From the NCBI RefSeq assembly GCF_000430995.1, contig NZ_HF952018.1:646798-698010 (forward strand): a DNA stretch of 51,213 bases, in the 5' to 3' direction. The DNA is from Thermobrachium celere DSM 8682. GTDB lineage: Bacteria > Bacillota > Clostridia > Clostridiales > Caloramatoraceae. Positions within the stretch are counted from its first letter, which is position 1. Every line of letters starts with the position of its first letter. Shown here in pieces: positions 2,286-14,755 of the stretch. A program made the position numbers and the translations under genes. The notes below the pieces were generated by a model, which saw nothing but the letters and a program-made list of their open reading frames with translations, had not been told where the DNA came from and made no database searches.

Positions 2286-2317
2286 TGGAAAATGTCACAT
2301 TTCACTTGGGTGGCACT
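2286..2317 (+). repeat. 32-bp repeat, copy B (left arm of perfect inverted pair)
   Basis: It is identical at 32/32 positions to the reverse complement of 12267-12298, and the match ends abruptly at both sides. It begins TGGAAAATGTCACATTTCAC and ends TTGGGTGGCACT. It overlaps the stop codon of the minus-strand deacetylase gene (stop 2316-2318). Confidence 0.95.
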
Positions 2318-3284
2318 ATGGGAGGGCAGTTAGGGGTTTGAATTCGTAGCCCATCTCTTGAAGTTTATCAATTATTGTTGGGAGAGCTTCTGTATTGCTC
2401 TTTGATACTGCATGTAGCAGCATTATTTCACCATTATGGCATCTATCTAGAACTCTTTGTATTGTTGTTTCAACTGGAGGTTGCTCATTAACAAGCCAAT
2501 CCTTATGTGCAAAGCTCCAAAAGATTGTCTTATATCCTAGCTTTTGTGTATAGTATAGTGATAGTTCACTGTATTTTCCCATTGGTGGTCTGAAAAATTT
2601 TGGCATATCCTGTCCTGTTACTTCTTTAAAGGCAATCTCAGTATCTTCAAATTCTTTTTTGAATTTCTCAAAGTCCAAAGCTTTCTGTGGCATAGATGGA
2701 TGTGTTGAGCTGTGATTTGCTACTATATGCCCTTCTTCTACCATTCTTTTTATTAACTCCTTGTTTTGTAGTATATACGGCCTTGTTACAAAGAATGCTG
2801 CTTTTACGTTTTTCTCCTTTAGAATATCAAGTATCTTACTAGTATATCCATTTTCATATCCCTCATCAAATGTTAAATATATTTCCTTTTTAGATGTGTC
2901 TCCTAAATAATAGGCATCATATTTTTTAAATAGTTCAACTATCTCCTTTGGCATGTATTGTGGTTTATGATCCTTTATAGGTGGAGGGCCGAAGTCAATT
3001 TCCTTGTTACTTAAGTTTGGTGCATTTACATTTATGTCATCTTTGGTTTGTTCGTTTGATGGTTCTTCATTATCTGTTACTGTTTCTTTGGTTTCATCTG
3101 TGCTTTGATTATCTTCTTTAGGCGTGTTTTCATTATCCTTTGGTTTATTATCTGTCTGGTTCTGATTATTTATATTTTCATTTGATGTTGTATTATTGGG
3201 TAGGTTGTTGTTAATTGACTGTCTATGAATACATGATGAAAAGATCAGCAGTAATACTAATATTACTGGAAGTATTTTCTTCAT
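2316..3284 (-). CDS. pdaA: PdaA-like polysaccharide deacetylase lipoprotein
   Basis: This is a predicted peptidoglycan N-acetylmuramic acid deacetylase of the NodB/CE4 family, PdaA branch. In sporulating Firmicutes PdaA starts muramic delta-lactam formation in spore cortex. Residues 1-18 form a lipoprotein signal ending FSSC. Residues about 23-95 are a disordered N/T/E/D-rich linker. The NodB domain runs from about 118, with motif 1 TFDEGYENG (D140), motif 2 HSSTHP (metal-binding His pair), motif 3 RPPMGKYS and a late LLHAVS. The TFDEGYEN form is typical of PdaA. The start overlaps the upstream stop by 4 bp (ATGA). The stop lies in 32-bp repeat copy B, so the last residues may have been reset by that repeat. 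Confidence 0.88.
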   Translation of the reverse strand: MKKILPVILVLLLIFSSCIHRQSINNNLPNNTTSNENINNQNQTDNKPKDNENTPKEDNQSTDETKETVTDNEEPSNEQTKDDINVNAPNLSNKEIDFGPPPIKDHKPQYMPKEIVELFKKYDAYYLGDTSKKEIYLTFDEGYENGYTSKILDILKEKNVKAAFFVTRPYILQNKELIKRMVEEGHIVANHSSTHPSMPQKALDFEKFKKEFEDTEIAFKEVTGQDMPKFFRPPMGKYSELSLYYTQKLGYKTIFWSFAHKDWLVNEQPPVETTIQRVLDRCHNGEIMLLHAVSKSNTEALPTIIDKLQEMGYEFKPLTALP

Positions 3285-5544: not shown

Positions 5545-8500
5545 CTACTTTAGTATTGGTTCTAGTTTTTCAAGTTGCTCAAGGTCATTTTTAAGATATA
5601 CAGAAGGGGAAAGTGTTAGGTCATAGTACATAAACTTTCCATGGTCTGGATATCTAGGATAAACTAATGCATCTCCAATGTTTTGTAGCGTTAAGCTTCT
5701 TTCATTTATTGTTTCATACTCAGATTCTATTGCTTCAAGAAGCAGTTTAGCATTTTGTATACATACCTTTGATAGGTTATATATATCCTTTGTTGAAGCA
5801 CCTTTTAAGAAGGTTGGAACGGCGTAGGGAAGAATTAAATTAACTGAAGGTATTAAATTTCTTTGAGGATTTTTTCCTCTAAAGAGTGTATCCCCGCCAA
5901 TAAAGGGGTAGAGGGCATCTTCATAAAACCATGCTCTAAGCTTTGGGATAAAGTATGCACTGTCCACCTCTCTATTTTGTATGTCCATTATTTCTTTACC
6001 TTGGCCAGATAATATTCCCACTATAATTTTATGAACGTTTACCTTTTCATTTTTTAGTATAGGATCAATTGCCTTTATTCTATATCCCTTATGAAGTATG
6101 TCGTCTACTAATATTATTGGCCTATCAAAGCAGGCTATAGTTTTAACTTGAAGTTCAAGGCTTAAATAGTTTGGATATGGACCAATTTTAAATGTTTTAA
6201 GGTTAGGGTTAAAAAGCTTTTCGGTATGTAGAGCCTTTGTAACAGTATTTGGAATTATATTTCTTTTCAATATATTTCCATAGGGTACACACATCAATGG
6301 CCCCAATGTTCTAGGTGTAAGCTGTGTGGTTGGAACTCCATTTTCATTGCAAATCTTTTGAACAAGCTTTTTATATATTACGTCCCTTTCAAAGATCAAA
6401 ACTAGATGCCCAGGATACAGCTTTGTAAGTGCGTCCTTTAGGTTTTCGCGTGTTTTATTAATTGCAAGTTTAACACTCTTTGTATTTCTGTAGGGCTCCT
6501 TTATTATTGTTTCAATATCAAGAAGTAGTGTAATTGGGTAGTTCATATTAACTGCATAGCATTTTGTAAGTATATCTTCAGATTTAACTTGAATAAATCC
6601 ATTTGAGAGCAATAGCTTTTCTATATTGAAGTTTTCTCTTATGTCTATAGTGTTTTTGTATATAGCATAGTCGTAGTCCTTCTTTATGCAGAAGGATAGG
6701 GTTTCGGTTAAAATAAGTTGAGGAAGTGCATCAATTGTAGAATTTTTATCTACATAAATTCCATCAATGCATATAATTCTACCTACAGCATTTTCTCTTA
6801 GAAAGTTTGAAATCATAGTATCGTTTAGTTCAATATAAAAGGAGTTTGAACGTAACCAATGGAATGTACTAAATCCTATAATATTATCGTTTGTCTTATC
6901 AATTGCTATAAGTATTCTTGCTGATGGCTTTGAAAACAGCTTCATTATTTTTTCTTTAACTACATAGAAATTGAGTTTAAGTAATTTTGATAGTTTTTCA
7001 ACAACAGCTTCTTTGTATTCCTCAATAACTTCAAAGTCAATAGGAGAGGTTGTAAGTACAGATTTATATTGAGGTTCTCTTCTGTAAAATCCATTTTCAT
7101 ATATATATTTTTGAACAAGTGGATCCACTAAATTGGATATATCTCTATTTTCATCTATACTTTCTCTTATTTGGGTTGAACTTATATCTTCATACTGTGG
7201 AGGAAGGTTTAATTTAATTATTTTTCCTTCTATATTATTTAAAGCCTCTTCAAATTTTTCTTGGCTATATTCATTTATACTTCTTCTTTCAAATATTATG
7301 TGATTTAAGGTATGAATAGAGTCAGCTGTTTTTTCCTTTTTATAGGCAGATGCATTAATTATAACGTCGCTTCCAACAACTATATAAACTTCATATTTTG
7401 AGAAGATGTCCTTAAGTTTTCTAATATCCTTAGGGTTTGAAATGTTTATAGGTTGTGTTTCTGGGAATATATATACGTTTCTTTCATCAGCTACAGAAAG
7501 GCTAGCAATGGTTCTTCTTATATAATTTGGCAAAGCCTTCTTAGACCAAGAAAATTCATCTATTGCAAGATATACTTCAAATCCTAAATCCCTTATCGCT
7601 CTTGCAATTTCCTTATGGCCTAAAGAGAATGGGTCAAAGGTTCCAGGCATGAATGCAATTTTATTTGGTATATCAAGTTTTATTTTTGAAATAGTGTTTT
7701 GTTCTGCTATAAATCTATAAATATGGTTTAGGGCAGCCGAATTTACAAGAAATAATAGTTCGTCCTCTTCAAATTGTCCAACTATTGTTAAAAACTTTTT
7801 TGCTATCAAATTAAATATTTCTGTTTTATCCTCTAGAGAAAGTTCCTTTGATCCAAATACAAATCTGCCTAAGCAGTTTAATGCAAACTGCCTTATCTGG
7901 TTGTTGTAGTTTATAAGTCCACTTAAAATTATTGAAATAAGCTTGTTTATTATCTTTTTATATTCTTCTTCCTTTTGAACCCCTGTTTTGTAAATGTTAA
8001 TGTTTGAAAGGGCAACAGAGGAAGTTTTAAGTATTAATGATGATATTCTTGGGTTTGATGTTTTAATTTTTTCATATGAGTCATCTAAAAATTCATTAAG
8101 TTCAACGGTAGGTAGATATAGTATTATTCTTCCAAGGTAGTTTGGAATATATTTTGTAAACCTATATCCTTCCATTTCAAGGGCGCGAACAAGTTCGACT
8201 GCTATTTCATTTCTTTGATCCATTGGAAGATACTTTATTATGTTTAGAATTGATTCGCCAGCTTTATTTCTAACAGCCTCTACTGCACTAACCTTTAAAA
8301 GATTACAGAAGTGTAGAGCTGTTTGAAGCCCTCTCTCCTTTATGTTTTTTAATGCATAGTCAAGAAGTATGTCTATTTGTATCTTTTTAGTTATCCAACT
8401 TGTTGCTGTTTTAAGGTTGCTAAGGAATATATCTGTAATGTTATCTAGGTTATTAAGGTAATATCTTAGATAGTCGTTTATTACCATTTTGTCTAGGTTG

Positions 8501-10365
8501 ATTTTTTCGGCTATACAAAGTTTAAGATAGTTTTCAGGTGCAGTTGAATTATATTTTATTTCTTTAGAGAATATATCTTTTATTTTATCTACTACATTAT
8601 TTGAAGGAGTCTTCTTTTTAAGTTGAAAATAGAGAGTATCAAGTGCCATAATTCTAATGTTGTGTCTATCTGAGGATAGTCTTTTTAATATAAATTCGAA
8701 AAATACATCGTCTCCTTCATCAAGTGGAATGTATTTTGCAGCATCTAAAAGGTATATTTCCATTTCCTTTGATAGATTTTGTTTATTGTAGAATTCAACC
8801 AGTACATCCTTATACTTTAGTTGTTCATTTTCGTTTAGTTTATTAAAAATAGATTTAATAAAAATAGCAAGGCTATATCCAATCCATTCCTTAAGTGTAT
8901 CTATTAATTTATGATCTGGTGAAAGCATAATGGATATGTACTTCTTAAATAGTGCTATTGAACTTATTTCAGGCTCTTCTATCTTTGCGTTTTCAGGAAG
9001 TTCCTTTCTATAGTCTTCATCAAAGGATGCAATTAATAGTCCAAGTATTTCAGCAGCTTGTCTTCTTATATCCTCTTCATTATGTACAAGTTGTTCATAA
9101 AGGAAGGATAGTGTTATTATCTTTTGCTTTTGAGTAAGGTATGTTGAATATTCTTCAATTATATCAAGGTATGCACGCAGAGATTGAGAGTCTTGAACAT
9201 TCCTTGCATTTTCAAGTATTTCATTAAGTGAAAATTCACTTCTAAGTTTATGCATTAACCTTATATTGTGACTGATTGATTGATATTTTATATTTTCAAT
9301 AACCTCATCTCCAAACATAAGGGCGTAACATTTTTCTTTTGAAGGTTCTGTTACTGTTCTTTCTAAATCAACGTTAATACCTAAGTCTACCAGATAGTTT
9401 TCAAAGTCCTTTAATTTTGAATAAACTTTCTTGTATCTTAATATTTTCTTTTCATCAACATTGTCAAGCTTATTTAGAATTACATCAAAGGATTCATCTA
9501 GATTATATATATACATTTCATCTTTACCATTTATTTTTTTGTTTTTTACTCTAAAGTCACTGTAGATAAGTATTAATGATTCAATAGATAGATTTTCAAG
9601 CTCAAGATCCCATGTAGAATGGTTTATGGCTATATTTCTTATGTAATTTATGTTATGTTTTTTAAACCAAACATCTGTGTAGTAATAGTGAAGATATGGT
9701 ACTCTTTTAAGTTCAATTCCCTTACATCCAAATTTTCCTATGTCATGTCCTGCAGCAGCACCAGAAATTCTTCCTAAATCTATTGGAATATTTTTGCTCT
9801 TAACTTGTCTTGCTATATATAAGGACAAATAGTGAACGCCACATACATGATCTAGAGTGTTATATCCTATTATTTCTTGATTAAGTTTCATCATTTCATA
9901 TATATAGTCTTCATTAAAGGCTTTAATAAAGGTTCTATATTCACTAGGGTCCTCAAGGGTGCTTTCTTCTTCAGGAGTTAGGAAGAATAAAGGATATCTG
10001 CTTTGAAAGCTACCGTCATTTGAGAGTTTTTGGAATTTTGAAAAAACTTTAAGTAGTATAAGATAGGTTTCAAATATTGCAAAGTCCTCTTCGTAAAGAG
10101 GTAAAGTTACAGCTTCGCTAAAGGATTTAGAAAGGGCATATTGATATACAGCAAATAAGAAATCATCATCTCTTTTATAGAAGCTTTTTATTATTTCTTC
10201 AAGGCATTTATAACACCTTAAACAGCTATAATCTCTTTGAACTGCTGCCTCACTTAGTTTGTTTTTAAAATCTTGGTGATTTAACATATCTATTAGACTT
10301 CTATATATATGTGAAGATGTTATTATTTTTGACTTAAGTATAAGTTCTAAAAATTCTCCAAACAT
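5545..10365 (-). CDS. 1606-residue fusion: HD, helical repeats, NadD-like, GNAT-like, PRTase-like
   Basis: The domains can be read in order. An HD metal-dependent phosphohydrolase-like region covers about 150-340 (H in TLDHVCGVH, then GHDIGKFG with D208, then NHST). A long alpha-helical HEAT/ARM-like solenoid covers about 380-890. A nicotinate-nucleotide adenylyltransferase-like domain covers about 900-1075 (MPGTFDPFSLGHKE with H917, VVGSDVI, SSTQIRES). A GNAT-like region covers about 1095-1260 (IIGFSTFHWLRS). A type I phosphoribosyltransferase-like domain covers about 1300-1520, with PRPP-loop variant IILVDDILHKG (D1421). Motifs of the adenylyltransferase look intact. The gene heads a four-gene operon and has a good RBS (AGGAGG) and promoter. 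The set suggests nucleotide or NAD-related metabolism or signalling on a scaffold. The overall function is unknown to me. Confidence 0.85.
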   Translation of the reverse strand: MFGEFLELILKSKIITSSHIYRSLIDMLNHQDFKNKLSEAAVQRDYSCLRCYKCLEEIIKSFYKRDDDFLFAVYQYALSKSFSEAVTLPLYEEDFAIFETYLILLKVFSKFQKLSNDGSFQSRYPLFFLTPEEESTLEDPSEYRTFIKAFNEDYIYEMMKLNQEIIGYNTLDHVCGVHYLSLYIARQVKSKNIPIDLGRISGAAAGHDIGKFGCKGIELKRVPYLHYYYTDVWFKKHNINYIRNIAINHSTWDLELENLSIESLILIYSDFRVKNKKINGKDEMYIYNLDESFDVILNKLDNVDEKKILRYKKVYSKLKDFENYLVDLGINVDLERTVTEPSKEKCYALMFGDEVIENIKYQSISHNIRLMHKLRSEFSLNEILENARNVQDSQSLRAYLDIIEEYSTYLTQKQKIITLSFLYEQLVHNEEDIRRQAAEILGLLIASFDEDYRKELPENAKIEEPEISSIALFKKYISIMLSPDHKLIDTLKEWIGYSLAIFIKSIFNKLNENEQLKYKDVLVEFYNKQNLSKEMEIYLLDAAKYIPLDEGDDVFFEFILKRLSSDRHNIRIMALDTLYFQLKKKTPSNNVVDKIKDIFSKEIKYNSTAPENYLKLCIAEKINLDKMVINDYLRYYLNNLDNITDIFLSNLKTATSWITKKIQIDILLDYALKNIKERGLQTALHFCNLLKVSAVEAVRNKAGESILNIIKYLPMDQRNEIAVELVRALEMEGYRFTKYIPNYLGRIILYLPTVELNEFLDDSYEKIKTSNPRISSLILKTSSVALSNINIYKTGVQKEEEYKKIINKLISIILSGLINYNNQIRQFALNCLGRFVFGSKELSLEDKTEIFNLIAKKFLTIVGQFEEDELLFLVNSAALNHIYRFIAEQNTISKIKLDIPNKIAFMPGTFDPFSLGHKEIARAIRDLGFEVYLAIDEFSWSKKALPNYIRRTIASLSVADERNVYIFPETQPINISNPKDIRKLKDIFSKYEVYIVVGSDVIINASAYKKEKTADSIHTLNHIIFERRSINEYSQEKFEEALNNIEGKIIKLNLPPQYEDISSTQIRESIDENRDISNLVDPLVQKYIYENGFYRREPQYKSVLTTSPIDFEVIEEYKEAVVEKLSKLLKLNFYVVKEKIMKLFSKPSARILIAIDKTNDNIIGFSTFHWLRSNSFYIELNDTMISNFLRENAVGRIICIDGIYVDKNSTIDALPQLILTETLSFCIKKDYDYAIYKNTIDIRENFNIEKLLLSNGFIQVKSEDILTKCYAVNMNYPITLLLDIETIIKEPYRNTKSVKLAINKTRENLKDALTKLYPGHLVLIFERDVIYKKLVQKICNENGVPTTQLTPRTLGPLMCVPYGNILKRNIIPNTVTKALHTEKLFNPNLKTFKIGPYPNYLSLELQVKTIACFDRPIILVDDILHKGYRIKAIDPILKNEKVNVHKIIVGILSGQGKEIMDIQNREVDSAYFIPKLRAWFYEDALYPFIGGDTLFRGKNPQRNLIPSVNLILPYAVPTFLKGASTKDIYNLSKVCIQNAKLLLEAIESEYETINERSLTLQNIGDALVYPRYPDHGKFMYYDLTLSPSVYLKNDLEQLEKLEPILK

Positions 10366-10398
10366 AGCATCCTCCTAAATTTTTGAGTATATATTTTA

Positions 10399-10428
10399 AT
10401 ATTACAAAAAATAAGCATAAATAGTCAA
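10399..10428 (-). promoter_or_regulatory. Sigma-A promoter of the four-gene operon
   Basis: On the minus strand, TTGACT (10428-10423) and TAATAT (10404-10399) are separated by 18 bp. The -10 end lies 34 bp before the ATG of the 1606-residue gene. The same 130-bp gap must hold the divergent pepF promoter. Confidence 0.65.
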
Positions 10429-10495
10429 ATTAATTATCTTAATATGGAAAGATTTATAAGATTGTGTAATAATTTATTAAAGGAGGTGTTTTTTT

Positions 10496-12289
10496 ATGGA
10501 TTATAGTTTAGTTGATAGGAAGGAAGTTCCACAGGAGTTTAAATGGGATATAGATACTATATACCCTGATGAAGTAAATTTAAAGCAGGATATTGAAAAA
10601 TTAAGAGGCATGATTGAAGAGATTAAGAATTTTAAAGGTAAGTTTAGGGATGGAGCAAAATATTTATATGAATGTCTTAAAATTAGAGATGAAGCAGGAA
10701 GGCTTTGCGATAAGATAACTGTATTTTGTTTCATGAAGAGGGATGAAGATAACAACAACACCAAAGGACAGGAACTTGCTGATATTGGAGAGAGAATATC
10801 AGTTGAGTTTGGTAGTGCTACAGCCTTTATATATCCAGAGATATTGTCGCTTGAAGAAGGGACTATTGATAGATATTTTAAAGAAGTTGAAGAATTAAAA
10901 TTATATTCACATGAACTTGATGATTTAATAAGACAGAAAAAATACGTTTTATCTGATAAAGAAGAGGAGCTTTTATCAAAGACAGCAGAAATGTCTTTGG
11001 GATACGAAAATGTGTTTAAGATGCTTAGCTTTGCTGATTTAAAGTTTGATAAGATAAAGGACTCTTTAGGTAAAGAATTTGATCTTACTATAAACAATTT
11101 TTCTCAATTTATAGTTTCAAAGGATAGGGAGCTTAGAAAAAATGCCTTTTTAAGCCTTCATAGAGGTTTTATGAAGTATAAAAATACATACGGAGCACTT
11201 TTATCATCAAAGATTAAATCTGATGTTTTTTATTCTTCAGTTAGAGGATTCAGATCATCCCTTGAGGCAGCACTATTTTCTGACAATATAGATGTTAATC
11301 TATATCATAAATTGATTGATATTGTATCAGAAAATATAATTCACTTTGATGAACTTATGAAATTAAAGAAAAAGGAATTAAAACTAGATGAGTTACATCT
11401 TTATGATTTATATGTTCCTATAGTTGAAAGTGTTGATATGGAAGTAAAATATGATGAAGCAAAGGAAATGGTAAAGGAAGGATTAAATATACTAGGTGAC
11501 GAATATCTAAGGGTTCTAGATGAGGCCTTTAATAATAAGTGGATAGATGTTTATAGCAATAAGGGTAAGTATTCAGGTGCATATTCTTGGGGTGCTTATG
11601 ATACAAAACCATATATACTTTTAAATTACAACAACAGGCTTGATGATGTATTAACTTTAGCCCATGAACTAGGACATTCAATACATTCATATTTTTCAAG
11701 AAAAACACAACCTTATGTTTATTCAAATTATACAATCTTCTGTGCAGAAGTTGCTTCAACAACAAATGAAGTTCTTATGTATTTCTACCTAATGGATAAG
11801 CTAAAGGGAGAGGCTAGAAGATATATTATAAGTGAATTTATGGAGCTTATAAGAACAACATACTATAGACAGGTTCTCTTTGCAGAGTTTGAACTTATAA
11901 CCCATACAATGGTTGAAAAGGGAGAACCACTTAATGGTGAAAAACTATCAGAGATTTGGATGAATCTATACAAAAAATACTATGGAAGAGAATGCGTAAT
12001 TGATGAGGAGATAAACATAGAATGGGCAAGAATACCTCATTTTTACGATGGATACTATGTATATAAATATGCAACAGGATTAAGTGGAGGAATTAGCATT
12101 GCAAAGTCAATTTTAGATAATAAAAAGAATGTAGATAGGTATCTAAACTTCCTAAAATCAGGAGGTAGCAAATATTCACTAGAACTATTAAAGGATGCTG
12201 GGGTGGATATGCTTTCAGGCAAACCGATATCTGACACAGCAGAAGTTTTAAAGTATCTCATTAAGGAGTGCCACCCAAGTGAAATGTGA
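10496..12289 (+). CDS. pepF: Oligoendopeptidase F (M3B metallopeptidase)
   Basis: This is a cytoplasmic zinc peptidase that cleaves short peptides. Its 597 residues match the family length. The zinc motif HELGH is at 390-394 in the TLAHELGHSIHSYFS context, with the third ligand region FCAEVASTTNE about 25 residues later and the substrate-side HFYDGYYVYKYATG motif near 520. The start is set by AAAGGAGGTG 7-8 bp upstream. It is transcribed away from the 1606-residue gene. Its last residues (ECHPSEM) and stop codon are encoded inside 32-bp repeat copy C, so the native C-terminus was probably replaced or trimmed slightly when the repeat arrived; the conserved part ends earlier, so activity should be unaffected. 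Confidence 0.95.
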   Translation: MDYSLVDRKEVPQEFKWDIDTIYPDEVNLKQDIEKLRGMIEEIKNFKGKFRDGAKYLYECLKIRDEAGRLCDKITVFCFMKRDEDNNNTKGQELADIGERISVEFGSATAFIYPEILSLEEGTIDRYFKEVEELKLYSHELDDLIRQKKYVLSDKEEELLSKTAEMSLGYENVFKMLSFADLKFDKIKDSLGKEFDLTINNFSQFIVSKDRELRKNAFLSLHRGFMKYKNTYGALLSSKIKSDVFYSSVRGFRSSLEAALFSDNIDVNLYHKLIDIVSENIIHFDELMKLKKKELKLDELHLYDLYVPIVESVDMEVKYDEAKEMVKEGLNILGDEYLRVLDEAFNNKWIDVYSNKGKYSGAYSWGAYDTKPYILLNYNNRLDDVLTLAHELGHSIHSYFSRKTQPYVYSNYTIFCAEVASTTNEVLMYFYLMDKLKGEARRYIISEFMELIRTTYYRQVLFAEFELITHTMVEKGEPLNGEKLSEIWMNLYKKYYGRECVIDEEINIEWARIPHFYDGYYVYKYATGLSGGISIAKSILDNKKNVDRYLNFLKSGGSKYSLELLKDAGVDMLSGKPISDTAEVLKYLIKECHPSEM

Positions 12290-12298
12290 CATTTTCCA
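12267..12298 (-). repeat. 32-bp repeat, copy C (right arm of perfect inverted pair)
   Basis: It is the exact reverse complement of 2286-2317 over 32 bp. It starts AGTGCCACCCAAGTGAAATG and ends TTTTCCA. It encodes the last residues and the TGA stop of pepF. Confidence 0.95.
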
Positions 12299-12448
12299 AG
12301 ATAAACCATATAAATTTTTAAAATACTTCATCTAGTGTAAATTATATTGTTAAGTATGAGATATAGTTTTGTCCTTAATTAACTTCAAAAAATCATACTA
12401 GAAACAAAAAAATTAAAAAATTTTTTGTGTAGATGTATAAAAATATGT
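12299..12448. other. AT-rich non-coding stretch before the structured RNA
   Basis: No gene is visible between pepF and the structured element at 12449. The stretch is very AT-rich. TATAAA at 12436-12441 could be a -10 box, but I find no well-placed -35. Confidence 0.4.
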
Positions 12449-12563
12449 GGGATGGTTAAAATTATTAATGAAAGCTCAAGGAAACCACCTTGAGATGGAA
12501 ACAGTAGTTTCCATAAACAGAACCCCCCATCCCCCTTAGGGCCGAGAAACGGCCCATTTTTTT
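12449..12563 (+). ncRNA. Candidate structured leader RNA with terminator, unidentified
   Basis: GGGATGG (12449-12455) pairs with CCATCCC (12527-12533) and closes a three-way junction. The two internal helices are CTCAAGG/CCTTGAG (12475-12481 with 12488-12494) and ATGGAAAC/GTTTCCAT (12495-12502 with 12507-12514, AGTA loop). A strong terminator GGGCCG/CGGCCC (12539-12544 with 12550-12555) and a T tract follow at once. The amidase gene begins 114 bp later. The architecture is that of a riboswitch or other cis-regulator, or a short independent RNA. It matches no riboswitch class whose consensus I can recall. Confidence 0.6.
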
Positions 12564-12676
12564 ATACTTACAAATGTCAAAAAATACATAAATTTAGGTA
12601 AAATAGCTGTTAAATTATTGATAAATATGCTGATTTAATATATAATTTAATTACATTAAACTTGGGGGTGGATTTC

Positions 12677-14755
12677 TTGAAGCTTTTCAAAAAGGTTGCC
12701 AGTTTGATAGTTGCATTTATGATGTCTTCAAATATAGCTTTTGCAGGTATGTTAGATGGTAGAAAAATAGTGCTTGATGCTGGTCATGGTGGTAAGCAGT
12801 CAGGAGCGTATTATTATAATATAAAGGAAAAAGATTTAAATATTGCTATTATAGAAAAACTTTCCAATATTCTAAAGAATTTTGGAGCAGAAATAATATT
12901 TACAAGAAAACCAAATAATGATGTTTTTGTTGAACTTAAAGATAGAGCTAATATAGCAAATAGTAATTCTGCAGACATGTTTATAAGTGTCCATAACAAT
13001 GCATCAGCGAGTGCTAAAGTAAATGGTACTGAAGTTTATTATAGTACTAATAGAGTAAATAATAAAAAGTTTGTATTGTTAAATGGAATAGCATACCAGT
13101 ATTTAAGAGAGATTAAAATAAATGATGTAGATTATGTTTATTATTTAGAGGGTAATAATGAAGCAATAATAGAAAAAAGTAAAGTTAAAATTGTTTATAG
13201 ATATGTTGAATTAGAAGGCAATAGATATGAATATTTAAGAGAAGAGAAAATTGATGATGTAGATTATGTTTACATTTTAGTTGATAACAAAGAGCAAAAA
13301 GTTGAAAAGAGTAAAGTTAAAATTGTAGATAGCAATGTAGCTTTTCAGGCGCTTGAAAGTATAGATTTAGCGAAACTAATAGTAAGCGGTATTTCTTCAG
13401 TAGGATTTGCTAACAAAGGTGCTAAAAATTCTAATTTTTATGTAGTTAAATATACTACAATGCCTTCTGTTTTAATAGAAGCAGGATATATGACAAATGC
13501 TGAAGAAATAAAGAAATTATCTAATCCTGATATACAAGAAAAAATAGCCTACAAAATAGCAGATGCTGTGTATAGATATTATGAAGAATATGAAAAGAGT
13601 AAAAGAAGGGCATTTGGTTTTATCAAGTCTTTAAATTTAAAGATTTCAAAAAGATTGTTATTGGTAGGACAAGCAGTTGATCTAGAACTTGAGGGGTTAG
13701 ATGATACAAGTAAATATTTATACAGAGTAGAGATAAAAAGAAATGGAGAAAATGTATATTCAACAGAATATGGACAAGCAACAAAGGTAAATTATATACC
13801 AAATAAAGAAGGTATATATGATGTTACTTTTTATATTAAGTCAGTTGATTCAAGTAATGATTATGATGATAAGATAACAGGTAATTATGTTGTATGTAAA
13901 GATCCTACAATAAAAAGTTTAAATCTTTCTGGCCAAAAAGTTAATGAAAAAAATCCGGTTAGTATAAATGTTGAAGTTCAAAATGGAAGCTATGAAGGGG
14001 TAATTTATAAATTTGAAGTATATTCTGGAGAAAGGTTAATATCAACTCAAACAAATACTACAGGAGTTTTAACATATAACCCTCAAGCAGCAGGAGAGTA
14101 TAGGGTTATAGCATATGTAAAAGATAAGTTAAGTGATAAAGAATATGATGATAAAAAAGAGGTAAAACTGCTTGTTGAAAAACAGGAGGAGATGTCAAGA
14201 GGTAATTCAGCTCCTCAAGAGAATAAAATACAGTTAGTTTATACAAGAACCCTAAAGAAGGGTGTAAAGGGAACAGATGTAGTGCAGCTACAACTTGCAT
14301 TACAAAGACTTGGATATTATAAGGCAAAATCAACGACATTGGAATTTGATGCAAATACAGAAGCTGCAGTAAAGGCCTTTCAAAAGGCAAATAAATTAAC
14401 TGCTGATGGAATAGTTGGAAAAGGTACTATTGTTAAGTTAAACAGTGCTTTGGGGGTAAGTACAGTAAATAAGAGTAATACAACAAATACAATAAATACA
14501 GCTAATACATCAAAGCCTACAATGCAGCTTGTATATAAAAGAGTATTAAGATCGGGATCAGTAGGGGAAGATGTAAGGCAACTTCAGCAGGCGTTGAAGA
14601 TTTTAGGATATTTTAAATATTCAACAACTACTAAATTTAGTAGTACAACTTTAAATGCTGTGAGAGCATTTCAAAAAGCAAATAAGTTAAATGCTAATGG
14701 AATTGTAGATAAGAAAACTGTAGATAAAATCAATGAAAGATTAAGAAGTAGATAG
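12677..14755 (+). CDS. N-acetylmuramoyl-L-alanine amidase with two PG-binding domains
   Basis: This is a secreted cell-wall hydrolase of 692 residues. I chose TTG at 12677 because GGGGGTGG precedes it at 5 bp and it yields a clean signal peptide (MKLFKKVASLIVAFMMSSN, cut near AFA). The Amidase_3 domain shows its zinc and catalytic motifs: VLDAGHGG (near residue 39), SVHNNA and VLIEAGYMTN. Between them a duplicated 44-residue element is inserted (about residues 127-218). Two Y_Y_Y/Ig-like repeats follow (about 315-500), then two PG_binding_1 domains (LKKGVKGTDVVQLQLAL and LRSGSVGEDVRQLQQAL, each ending in FQKANKL..GIV). It is probably a monocistronic gene between an upstream attenuator-like RNA and its own terminator. 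Confidence 0.9.
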   Translation: MKLFKKVASLIVAFMMSSNIAFAGMLDGRKIVLDAGHGGKQSGAYYYNIKEKDLNIAIIEKLSNILKNFGAEIIFTRKPNNDVFVELKDRANIANSNSADMFISVHNNASASAKVNGTEVYYSTNRVNNKKFVLLNGIAYQYLREIKINDVDYVYYLEGNNEAIIEKSKVKIVYRYVELEGNRYEYLREEKIDDVDYVYILVDNKEQKVEKSKVKIVDSNVAFQALESIDLAKLIVSGISSVGFANKGAKNSNFYVVKYTTMPSVLIEAGYMTNAEEIKKLSNPDIQEKIAYKIADAVYRYYEEYEKSKRRAFGFIKSLNLKISKRLLLVGQAVDLELEGLDDTSKYLYRVEIKRNGENVYSTEYGQATKVNYIPNKEGIYDVTFYIKSVDSSNDYDDKITGNYVVCKDPTIKSLNLSGQKVNEKNPVSINVEVQNGSYEGVIYKFEVYSGERLISTQTNTTGVLTYNPQAAGEYRVIAYVKDKLSDKEYDDKKEVKLLVEKQEEMSRGNSAPQENKIQLVYTRTLKKGVKGTDVVQLQLALQRLGYYKAKSTTLEFDANTEAAVKAFQKANKLTADGIVGKGTIVKLNSALGVSTVNKSNTTNTINTANTSKPTMQLVYKRVLRSGSVGEDVRQLQQALKILGYFKYSTTTKFSSTTLNAVRAFQKANKLNANGIVDKKTVDKINERLRSR
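13094..13330 (+). repeat. 132-bp tandem duplication inside the amidase catalytic domain
   Basis: The unit beginning at 13094 (YQYLREIKINDVDYVYYLEG...) recurs at 13226 (YEYLREEKIDDVDYVYILVD...) with a 132-bp period, 44 codons. Both end KSKVKIV. Long DNA stretches are identical between units, which suggests a recent duplication. The second unit is cut short at about 13330. Confidence 0.85.

Follow-up and report, generated by a model that had tools for sequence, protein, structure and literature searches.

The window, a stretch of 51,213 nucleotides from Thermobrachium celere DSM 8682 (contig NZ_HF952018.1, positions 646,798 to 698,010; genome of 2.64 Mb in 55 contigs), contains at positions 5545-10365 the gene of a large multidomain protein, directly followed downstream by the genes of a dehydrogenase and a flavoprotein. 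These three proteins form an obligate trio, the parts of which are known folds. As a tentative interpretation of the sequences, the trio might be a self-contained pathway that makes and hydrolyzes a nucleotide or dinucleotide which the redox partners feed or use. A preliminary description of the same DNA had recognized the 1606-residue open reading frame (ORF), proposed five domains for its product and quoted motifs for several of them; it gave no strand and missed the two partner genes. The ORF was borne out and lies on the minus strand, where it runs uninterrupted from an ATG to a stop codon; the plus-strand translation of the same positions is riddled with stop codons.

The association of the three genes was analyzed in 291 genomes of the window's class. 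The large protein was matched in 148 of them; among the matches listed, 25 genomes carry the large protein itself, some in copies truncated at contig ends; in the remaining 123, the match is confined to the nucleotidyltransferase region and mostly lies in short ORFs. The dehydrogenase was found in 24 and the flavoprotein in 23 of the 291 genomes, and both sets fall inside the 25 with the large protein. No partner without the large protein was found in these genomes at E 1e-30 or better, a cut-off chosen to drop ordinary lactate dehydrogenases (LDHs) and flavoproteins; the listed matches all had 1e-131 or better, and weaker relatives are possible. A contig end truncates the large gene in genome G178, which lacks both partners and is 84% complete, and the dehydrogenase gene in G240, which lacks the flavoprotein. 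The dehydrogenase was also present in all six further genomes of the phylum. In a second class, the three genes stood together in 16 of 16 loci fetched, of 18 genomes matched, with the flavoprotein ORF shortened in one (L175), and the locus of genome G657 likewise holds all three together.

For 27 loci, the stretch fetched included the partners and a complete large gene. In 24 of them, the large gene and the dehydrogenase gene overlap or are separated by ≤ 21 bp; wider gaps of 198, 310, and 5648 bp occurred in L056, L048, and L045, respectively. The two partner genes share a 4-bp overlap in 16 of the 27. The pairwise divergences of the three proteins over these loci correlate with r values of 0.82-0.93, a result that would also be expected from shared genome ancestry. 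For L046, L047, L051, L062, and L073, the stretch fetched contained no partner. In the genome of L046 the partner pair lies 5.4 kb downstream of the large gene, and in that of L047 the pair is located at the start of another contig and the large gene near the end of its own; the remaining three are considered below.

The large protein is no accidental fusion, as the domain order is the same in 48 full-length copies, which represent at least two classes. The alignment of these copies comprises the window's own, 25 from the first round, 6 from the search of the phylum and 16 from the second class, including two second copies (L051 and L062) and excluding fragments and one frameshifted copy (L037); it extends over the whole length. 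A profile of the C-terminal domain matched 8 of 398 genomes of the phylum and 18 of 379 genomes of the class of G657, which itself is in both sets. The matches sit in open frames of 1573-1678 residues, except for a split copy in G914, and the C-terminal domain was not seen outside the full architecture in either search. The nearest named relative found is Caloramator sp. mosi_1 (L037), in which pieces of the large protein are 82-89% identical. At this locus (6001-13033) the large protein, the dehydrogenase, the flavoprotein, and some neighbors are split by frameshifts, and the assembly may hold many indel errors. G677, a one-contig genome of the same genus as Caloramator sp. mosi_1, has a given completeness of 74%. 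The features of the three genes are compiled in Table 1.

Table 1. Positions of the trio genes and of domains and motifs of the large protein in the window (PRTase, phosphoribosyltransferase; PRPP, phosphoribosyl pyrophosphate; MDH, malate dehydrogenase).
Feature	Position	Strand	Evidence
Large multidomain protein, 1606 aa	5545..10365	-	ORF; 48 full-length copies aligned, including the window's
HD phosphohydrolase domain, residues 130-345	9331..9978	-	Pfam HD, predicted model, structural neighbors
HD motif H207-D208 (other predicted ligands H173, H226, H249, D270)	9742..9747	-	Identical in 48/48
Helical HEAT-type solenoid, residues 346-889	7699..9330	-	Pfam HEAT
NadD-type nucleotidyltransferase domain, residues 890-1102	7060..7698	-	CTP_transf_like, NadD models, solved NadD/CoaD chains
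Nucleotide-binding motif GTFDPFSLGH, residues 908-917	7615..7644	-	Conservation in 48 copies
ISSTQIR motif, residues 1061-1067	7165..7185	-	R1067 kept in 47/48
GNAT-like linker domain, residues 1103-1285 (weak assignment)	6511..7059	-	Acetyltransf_1, hhalign
PRTase-like C-terminal domain, residues 1275-1606	5548..6543	-	Pribosyltran, hhalign
PRPP-loop-like motif VDDILHKGYR, residues 1420-1429	6079..6108	-	Conservation in 48 copies
Partner 1: LDH/MDH-like dehydrogenase with extra N-terminal region, 400 aa	4332..5534	-	Ldh_1_N, E 1.8e-8; 10 bp gap to the large gene
Partner 2: FMN_red-type flavoprotein with four-Cys motif, 352 aa	3281..4339	-	FMN_red, E 1.4e-21; 8 bp overlap with the dehydrogenase gene

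Four of the five domains proposed in the preliminary description, namely the HD domain, the HEAT solenoid, the NadD-type domain, and the PRTase-like end, were supported, and the fifth, a GNAT-like domain, remains a weak assignment. All motifs quoted for them are present (SSTQIR as part of ISSTQIR, VDDILHKG at residues 1420-1427). The description had named missing conservation of the catalytic residues across homologs as an argument against its proposal; this argument falls away because the key residues are kept across the 48 copies, as detailed below. It had also suggested structure prediction as a check of the folds. This supported the HD domain, whose model has mostly HD-type neighbors; the model of residues 880-1606, built on a four-row alignment from the window, L036, and L037, had a mean predicted local distance difference test score (pLDDT) of 37.7, was too poor to be used and was set aside.

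Pfam HD recognizes 23 of the 26 family members, with a best E of 6.8e-8, and the window copy scores below the cut-off. The residues H173, H207, D208, H226, H249, and D270 are identical in all 48 full-length sequences; by analogy to the HD superfamily, whose H...HD...D residues correspond to H173, H207, D208, and D270, they are predicted to be metal ligands. The predicted model of residues 120-346 (pLDDT 68.7, predicted template modeling score 0.73) gave 0 Foldseek matches at E 0.001 or better. In a structural comparison with VIA, most of the 50 rows were HD-type as judged from their titles. The top neighbors 1xx7 and 2cqz had a Z of 7.7, which is middling by VIA's own note, above all for helical models, with root-mean-square deviations of 4.6 and 4.9 over 133 and 134 aligned residues, respectively. 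Small alarmone hydrolases, YpgQ, YfbR, HD-GYP proteins, and YqeK followed lower down, many of them tied. When the HD profile was compared with solved structures, the matches were limited to 1xx7 (E 0.0067) and a protein of the HD-GYP type (E 0.01). An identity as YqeK, suggested by the order of the conserved residues, was not supported by profile comparison: a profile of HD-GYP, the single control in this comparison, scored better than that of YqeK (E 5.1e-5 vs. 5.4e-4). No row for the NCBIfam model TIGR00488 was obtained for the large protein up to E 1, and the YqeK-titled chain 8wmy reached a Z of 5.5 in VIA, compared to up to 7.7 for other HD chains.

The nucleotidyltransferase domain was recognized by Pfam CTP_transf_like above the cut-off (E 2.5e-11) and by the NCBIfam nicotinate-nucleotide adenylyltransferase models (E 6e-13). 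Residues 907-1094 align to the whole TIGR00482 model, with a score of 48.7 bits that is below both curated cut-offs (112.45 for TIGR00482 and 150 for NF000840). In a profile search against solved structures, chains of NadD and CoaD were matched. F910, D911, P912, F913, and H917, the second His of the HIGH-type motif, are identical in all 48 copies and R1067 of ISSTxIR in 47; the HxGH motif begins with Ser or Thr in all 48. A near-invariant DEFSWSK stretch stands where, judged by eye, the NadD of the same genome has its PPHK segment. This separate nadD, for which the preliminary description had proposed to look, is present and adjoins yqeK; the large protein is not the cell's only NadD-type protein.

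These results bear on an explanation which we consider unlikely, namely that the large protein serves as spare machinery for NAD synthesis and its quality control, in which the NadD-type domain would make nicotinic acid adenine dinucleotide or NAD, the HD domain would proofread it, and the PRTase-like end would supply the mononucleotide. The best nucleotidyltransferase models are indeed those of NadD, and the conserved residues of the HD domain have the order H, HD, H, H, D as in YqeK, for which fusion to NadD or clustering with it and a proofreading role have been reported (PMC9426524). This explanation is at odds with the presence of the separate nadD and yqeK, with the HD profile being no closer to YqeK (5.4e-4) than to the single control HD-GYP (5.1e-5), and with the replacement of the first His of HxGH by Ser/Thr and the later DEFSWSK segment.

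The C-terminal domain adds a further point. Pribosyltran (PF00156) matches 17 of 26 members (best E 7.9e-5), the window copy having an E of 0.064 below the cut-off. An hhalign comparison with eight PRTases of the same genome gave an E of 6.2e-5 for an alignment of 36 columns at the PRPP loop, compared to 0.23 for a GNAT control. In a search of the profile against the PDB, an unrelated chain came first (E 0.18), followed by a hypoxanthine PRTase (E 0.63). Within the PRPP-like loop, D1421, G1427, and R1429 are each kept in 47 and D1422 in 44 of the 48 copies; a Thr before the Gly is found in a single copy and is mostly replaced by Lys (38/48). The PRTases of NAD salvage belong to type II. Since the PRPP loop of the large protein resembles type I instead, ordinary salvage of nicotinate or nicotinamide by this protein appears unlikely, and plain NAD salvage becomes less likely because, in addition, nadD and yqeK lie side by side elsewhere in the genome. 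For NadV, a 'sandwich-barrel hybrid' fold is reported (PMC9503650).

The HEAT model of Pfam recognizes the solenoid in 21 of 32 members, with a best E of 2.1e-7, and the slice from the window scored 25.1 bits with a cut-off of 23.5. For residues ~1103-1285, the mean column identity is 48% with four invariant columns among 26 sequences. Acetyltransf_1 matched 2 of 26 members weakly (best E 0.024), and the hhalign match to GNAT was also weak (E 0.024 vs. 0.22 for a PRTase control). A Q/RxxGxG/A acetyl-CoA loop was not visible by eye in the alignment of the 26 sequences, and the profile matched a single, unrelated chain among solved structures (E 0.2). Within the same part, ACT_8 was matched in 1 of 26 members (E 0.0095); a Pfam scan found no ACT domain in the window protein.

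With regard to the partners, R199, R266, and H289 of the dehydrogenase are invariant in 28 of 28 sequences and occupy the places of the two substrate-binding Arg residues and the catalytic His of LDH. The active-site set of L-lactate/malate dehydrogenases is nevertheless incomplete, with His and both Arg residues kept and Asp replaced by Met. The flavoprotein has an FMN_red match in all 28 sequences and four Cys residues invariant in 28 (C206, C209, C214, and C223), which suggest a putative iron-sulfur cluster. Its profile gave no match at E 0.001 among solved structures, and no significant Pfam match was found for its N-terminal ~160 residues.

Directly downstream of the trio and on the same strand, the window carries at 2316-3284 a gene for a PdaA-type delta-lactam-forming deacetylase (TIGR02884, over the cut-off). 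Such a spore cortex enzyme next to the trio, together with a strong Spo0A match in 19 of the 25 genomes that encode the large protein, would fit a role in sporulation or dormancy. We regard this role as most improbable and largely refuted because the trio occurs in organisms without a convincing Spo0A: in six of the 25 genomes (G064, G069, G097, G164, G269, and G281, each with a completeness of 99-100%), no match to Spo0A surpasses 1e-25. In addition, the deacetylase is not a recurring neighbor, as its cluster comprises two loci, one of which is the window's own place. Near the downstream end of the trio, the window also contains a transposase-like ORF (443-1342), which resembles the IS3 family.

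In five loci the recurring divergent neighbors, as judged by eye from their sequences, resemble the housekeeping proteins RpoD, DnaG, and a dGTPase, and Pfam names of other neighbors include RecG, phosphotransacetylase, CpXC, and parts of glutamate synthase. We take all of these as local synteny outside the system. In L171, a locus of the second class, the gene ahead of the large gene encodes a CpXC protein, and ORFs of equal length occupy this position in L172, L176, L178, and L182; phosphotransacetylase follows the trio in L171 and L174, as RecG does in L176. The housekeeping appearance of the divergent neighbors is one of the reasons why a mobile or anti-phage defense cassette seems very unlikely to us, even though the distribution of the large protein is patchy and NAD and nucleotide chemistry is common in defense. 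None of the trio proteins had a PADLOC match at E 0.01, and no relative was found in viral contigs, searched with the HD and PRTase-like profiles, or in phage records. The single match in a plasmid collection was a record of 2.63 Mb, evidently a chromosome.

For three such sites joined on a single scaffold, with two redox enzymes unseen in its absence, the shortest explanation is a dedicated route to a nucleotide-type compound in which hydrolysis would act as control. In such a pathway, the PRTase-like end would join a base or another acceptor to the ribose-phosphate of PRPP, and the NadD-type domain would adenylylate this product to a dinucleotide. The HD domain might hydrolyze wrong or surplus product, with the HEAT scaffold holding the three sites together, and the LDH-like dehydrogenase and the flavoprotein could either produce the acceptor or employ the compound as a cofactor or an effector. 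The pairing of an adenylyltransferase with an HD hydrolase makes sense in the light of the proofreading reported for NadD and YqeK (PMC9426524). The preliminary description had suggested a nucleotide-linked pathway unlike known ones; this is consistent with the data and with the missing library match, and we infer the pathway itself, including the activity of the sites, the order of the reactions, the nature of the compound, and the connection to the redox enzymes, from fold and context. A more specific version, in which the large protein would turn PRPP and ATP into a new dinucleotide-type cofactor or signal, NAD-like with a non-nicotinamide base, which the HD domain would police and the dedicated dehydrogenase and flavoprotein would use, is speculative and of low probability.

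Several observations weigh against a pathway of this kind. No substrate or activity is known for the large protein, the PRTase match covers only 36 columns with a loop lacking the usual Thr before Gly, the NadD-type domain is far below the curated cut-offs and lacks the substrate segment of the NadD of its own genome, and the genome has its own nadD and yqeK. The dehydrogenase has an invariant Met263 (28 sequences) at the position of the catalytic Asp of LDH. In the genome of L073 (G606), the genes are apart: the partner pair is on another contig, and no contig end adjoins the large gene. Two genomes have second copies of the large gene without adjacent partners. One of them, L051 (7827-12722) in G155, has a changed ISST of ISSTxIR. 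In the other, L062 (6197-11113), the nucleotidyltransferase motifs are altered and the HD and PRPP-loop residues are intact, so that the domains need not act in series, and as judged from its residues this copy is a natural separation of domain functions.

The main rival to the nucleotide pathway is a regulator comparable to GlnD, which we find rather doubtful. GlnD-type regulators carry an opposing nucleotidyltransferase and HD hydrolase on one chain, as does the large protein. By analogy, the nucleotidyltransferase would attach a nucleotide to the redox partners or another protein, the HD domain would take it off again, and the PRTase-like and GNAT-like domains would sense nucleotides or acyl-CoA, so that the redox reaction is tuned to the energy state. 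The combination of both activities with a large HEAT scaffold suited to partner binding would agree with such a function, as would the close association with two redox enzymes, the weak conservation of the GNAT-like domain, and the departure of the PRPP loop from the canonical form. However, the nucleotidyltransferase fold of GlnD-type regulators differs from the NadD type found here, which joins nucleotides to small-molecule phosphates and is not the GlnD/GlnE fold, the window protein also differs from these regulators in having no ACT domain, and no adenylylation target is known. Whether pathway or regulator, the trio is a well-bounded target, being a fixed three-gene system in at least two classes of one phylum that is small enough to be expressed whole, and it might yield a new cofactor or signal or else represent a new means of coupling redox enzymes to the nucleotide state.

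For the whole large protein, no model was found in Pfam, NCBIfam, PADLOC, or PHROGs, and no description of it or of the trio was found in the open-access literature searched. We know of no kind of system that combines the parts of the trio. A precedent for joining two of the folds is a 345-aa ORF (L005/L151; G000:C32:1692139-1693014), presumably a citrate lyase ligase, that links GNAT and CTP_transf_like in the order opposite to that in the large protein. With NadD (TIGR00482), the large protein shares the TFDP and ISSTxIR motifs and an alignment over the whole model; it differs by its score (48.7 bits, with the cut-off at 112), Ser/Thr in place of the first His, and DEFSWSK instead of PPHK. 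Type I PRTases (PF00156) have in common with it a hydrophobic strand followed by DDxxxxG in register, but the likeness is limited to the loop (36 columns), Lys mostly replaces the Thr before Gly, and the large protein has a conserved NTVTKxLHTEK stretch and a C-terminal tail. Partner 1 resembles L-lactate/malate dehydrogenases (PF00056) in its nucleotide-binding motif, two Arg residues, and the active-site His, and is distinguished from them by the invariant Met in place of the catalytic Asp and by an extra N-terminal region of ~100 residues, which is missing in some copies (L040 and L171). Partner 2 is similar to iron-sulfur flavoproteins and NADPH-dependent FMN reductases (PF03358) with respect to FMN_red and the four invariant Cys residues, but has an extra N-terminal region of ~160 residues and the CX2CX4CX8C spacing. 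The closest parallel for a single chain that combines a nucleotidyltransferase of the NadD type with an HD phosphohydrolase is the NadD-YqeK fusion JCVISYN3A_0380, the pairing of NadD with the HD hydrolase YqeK being reported to proofread NAD synthesis (PMC9426524). In comparison to this fusion, the large protein has ~1600 residues with the HD domain first, which by profile is no closer to YqeK than to HD-GYP, and the NadD-type domain after the HEAT solenoid, and it adds GNAT-like and PRTase-like domains and two redox partner genes.

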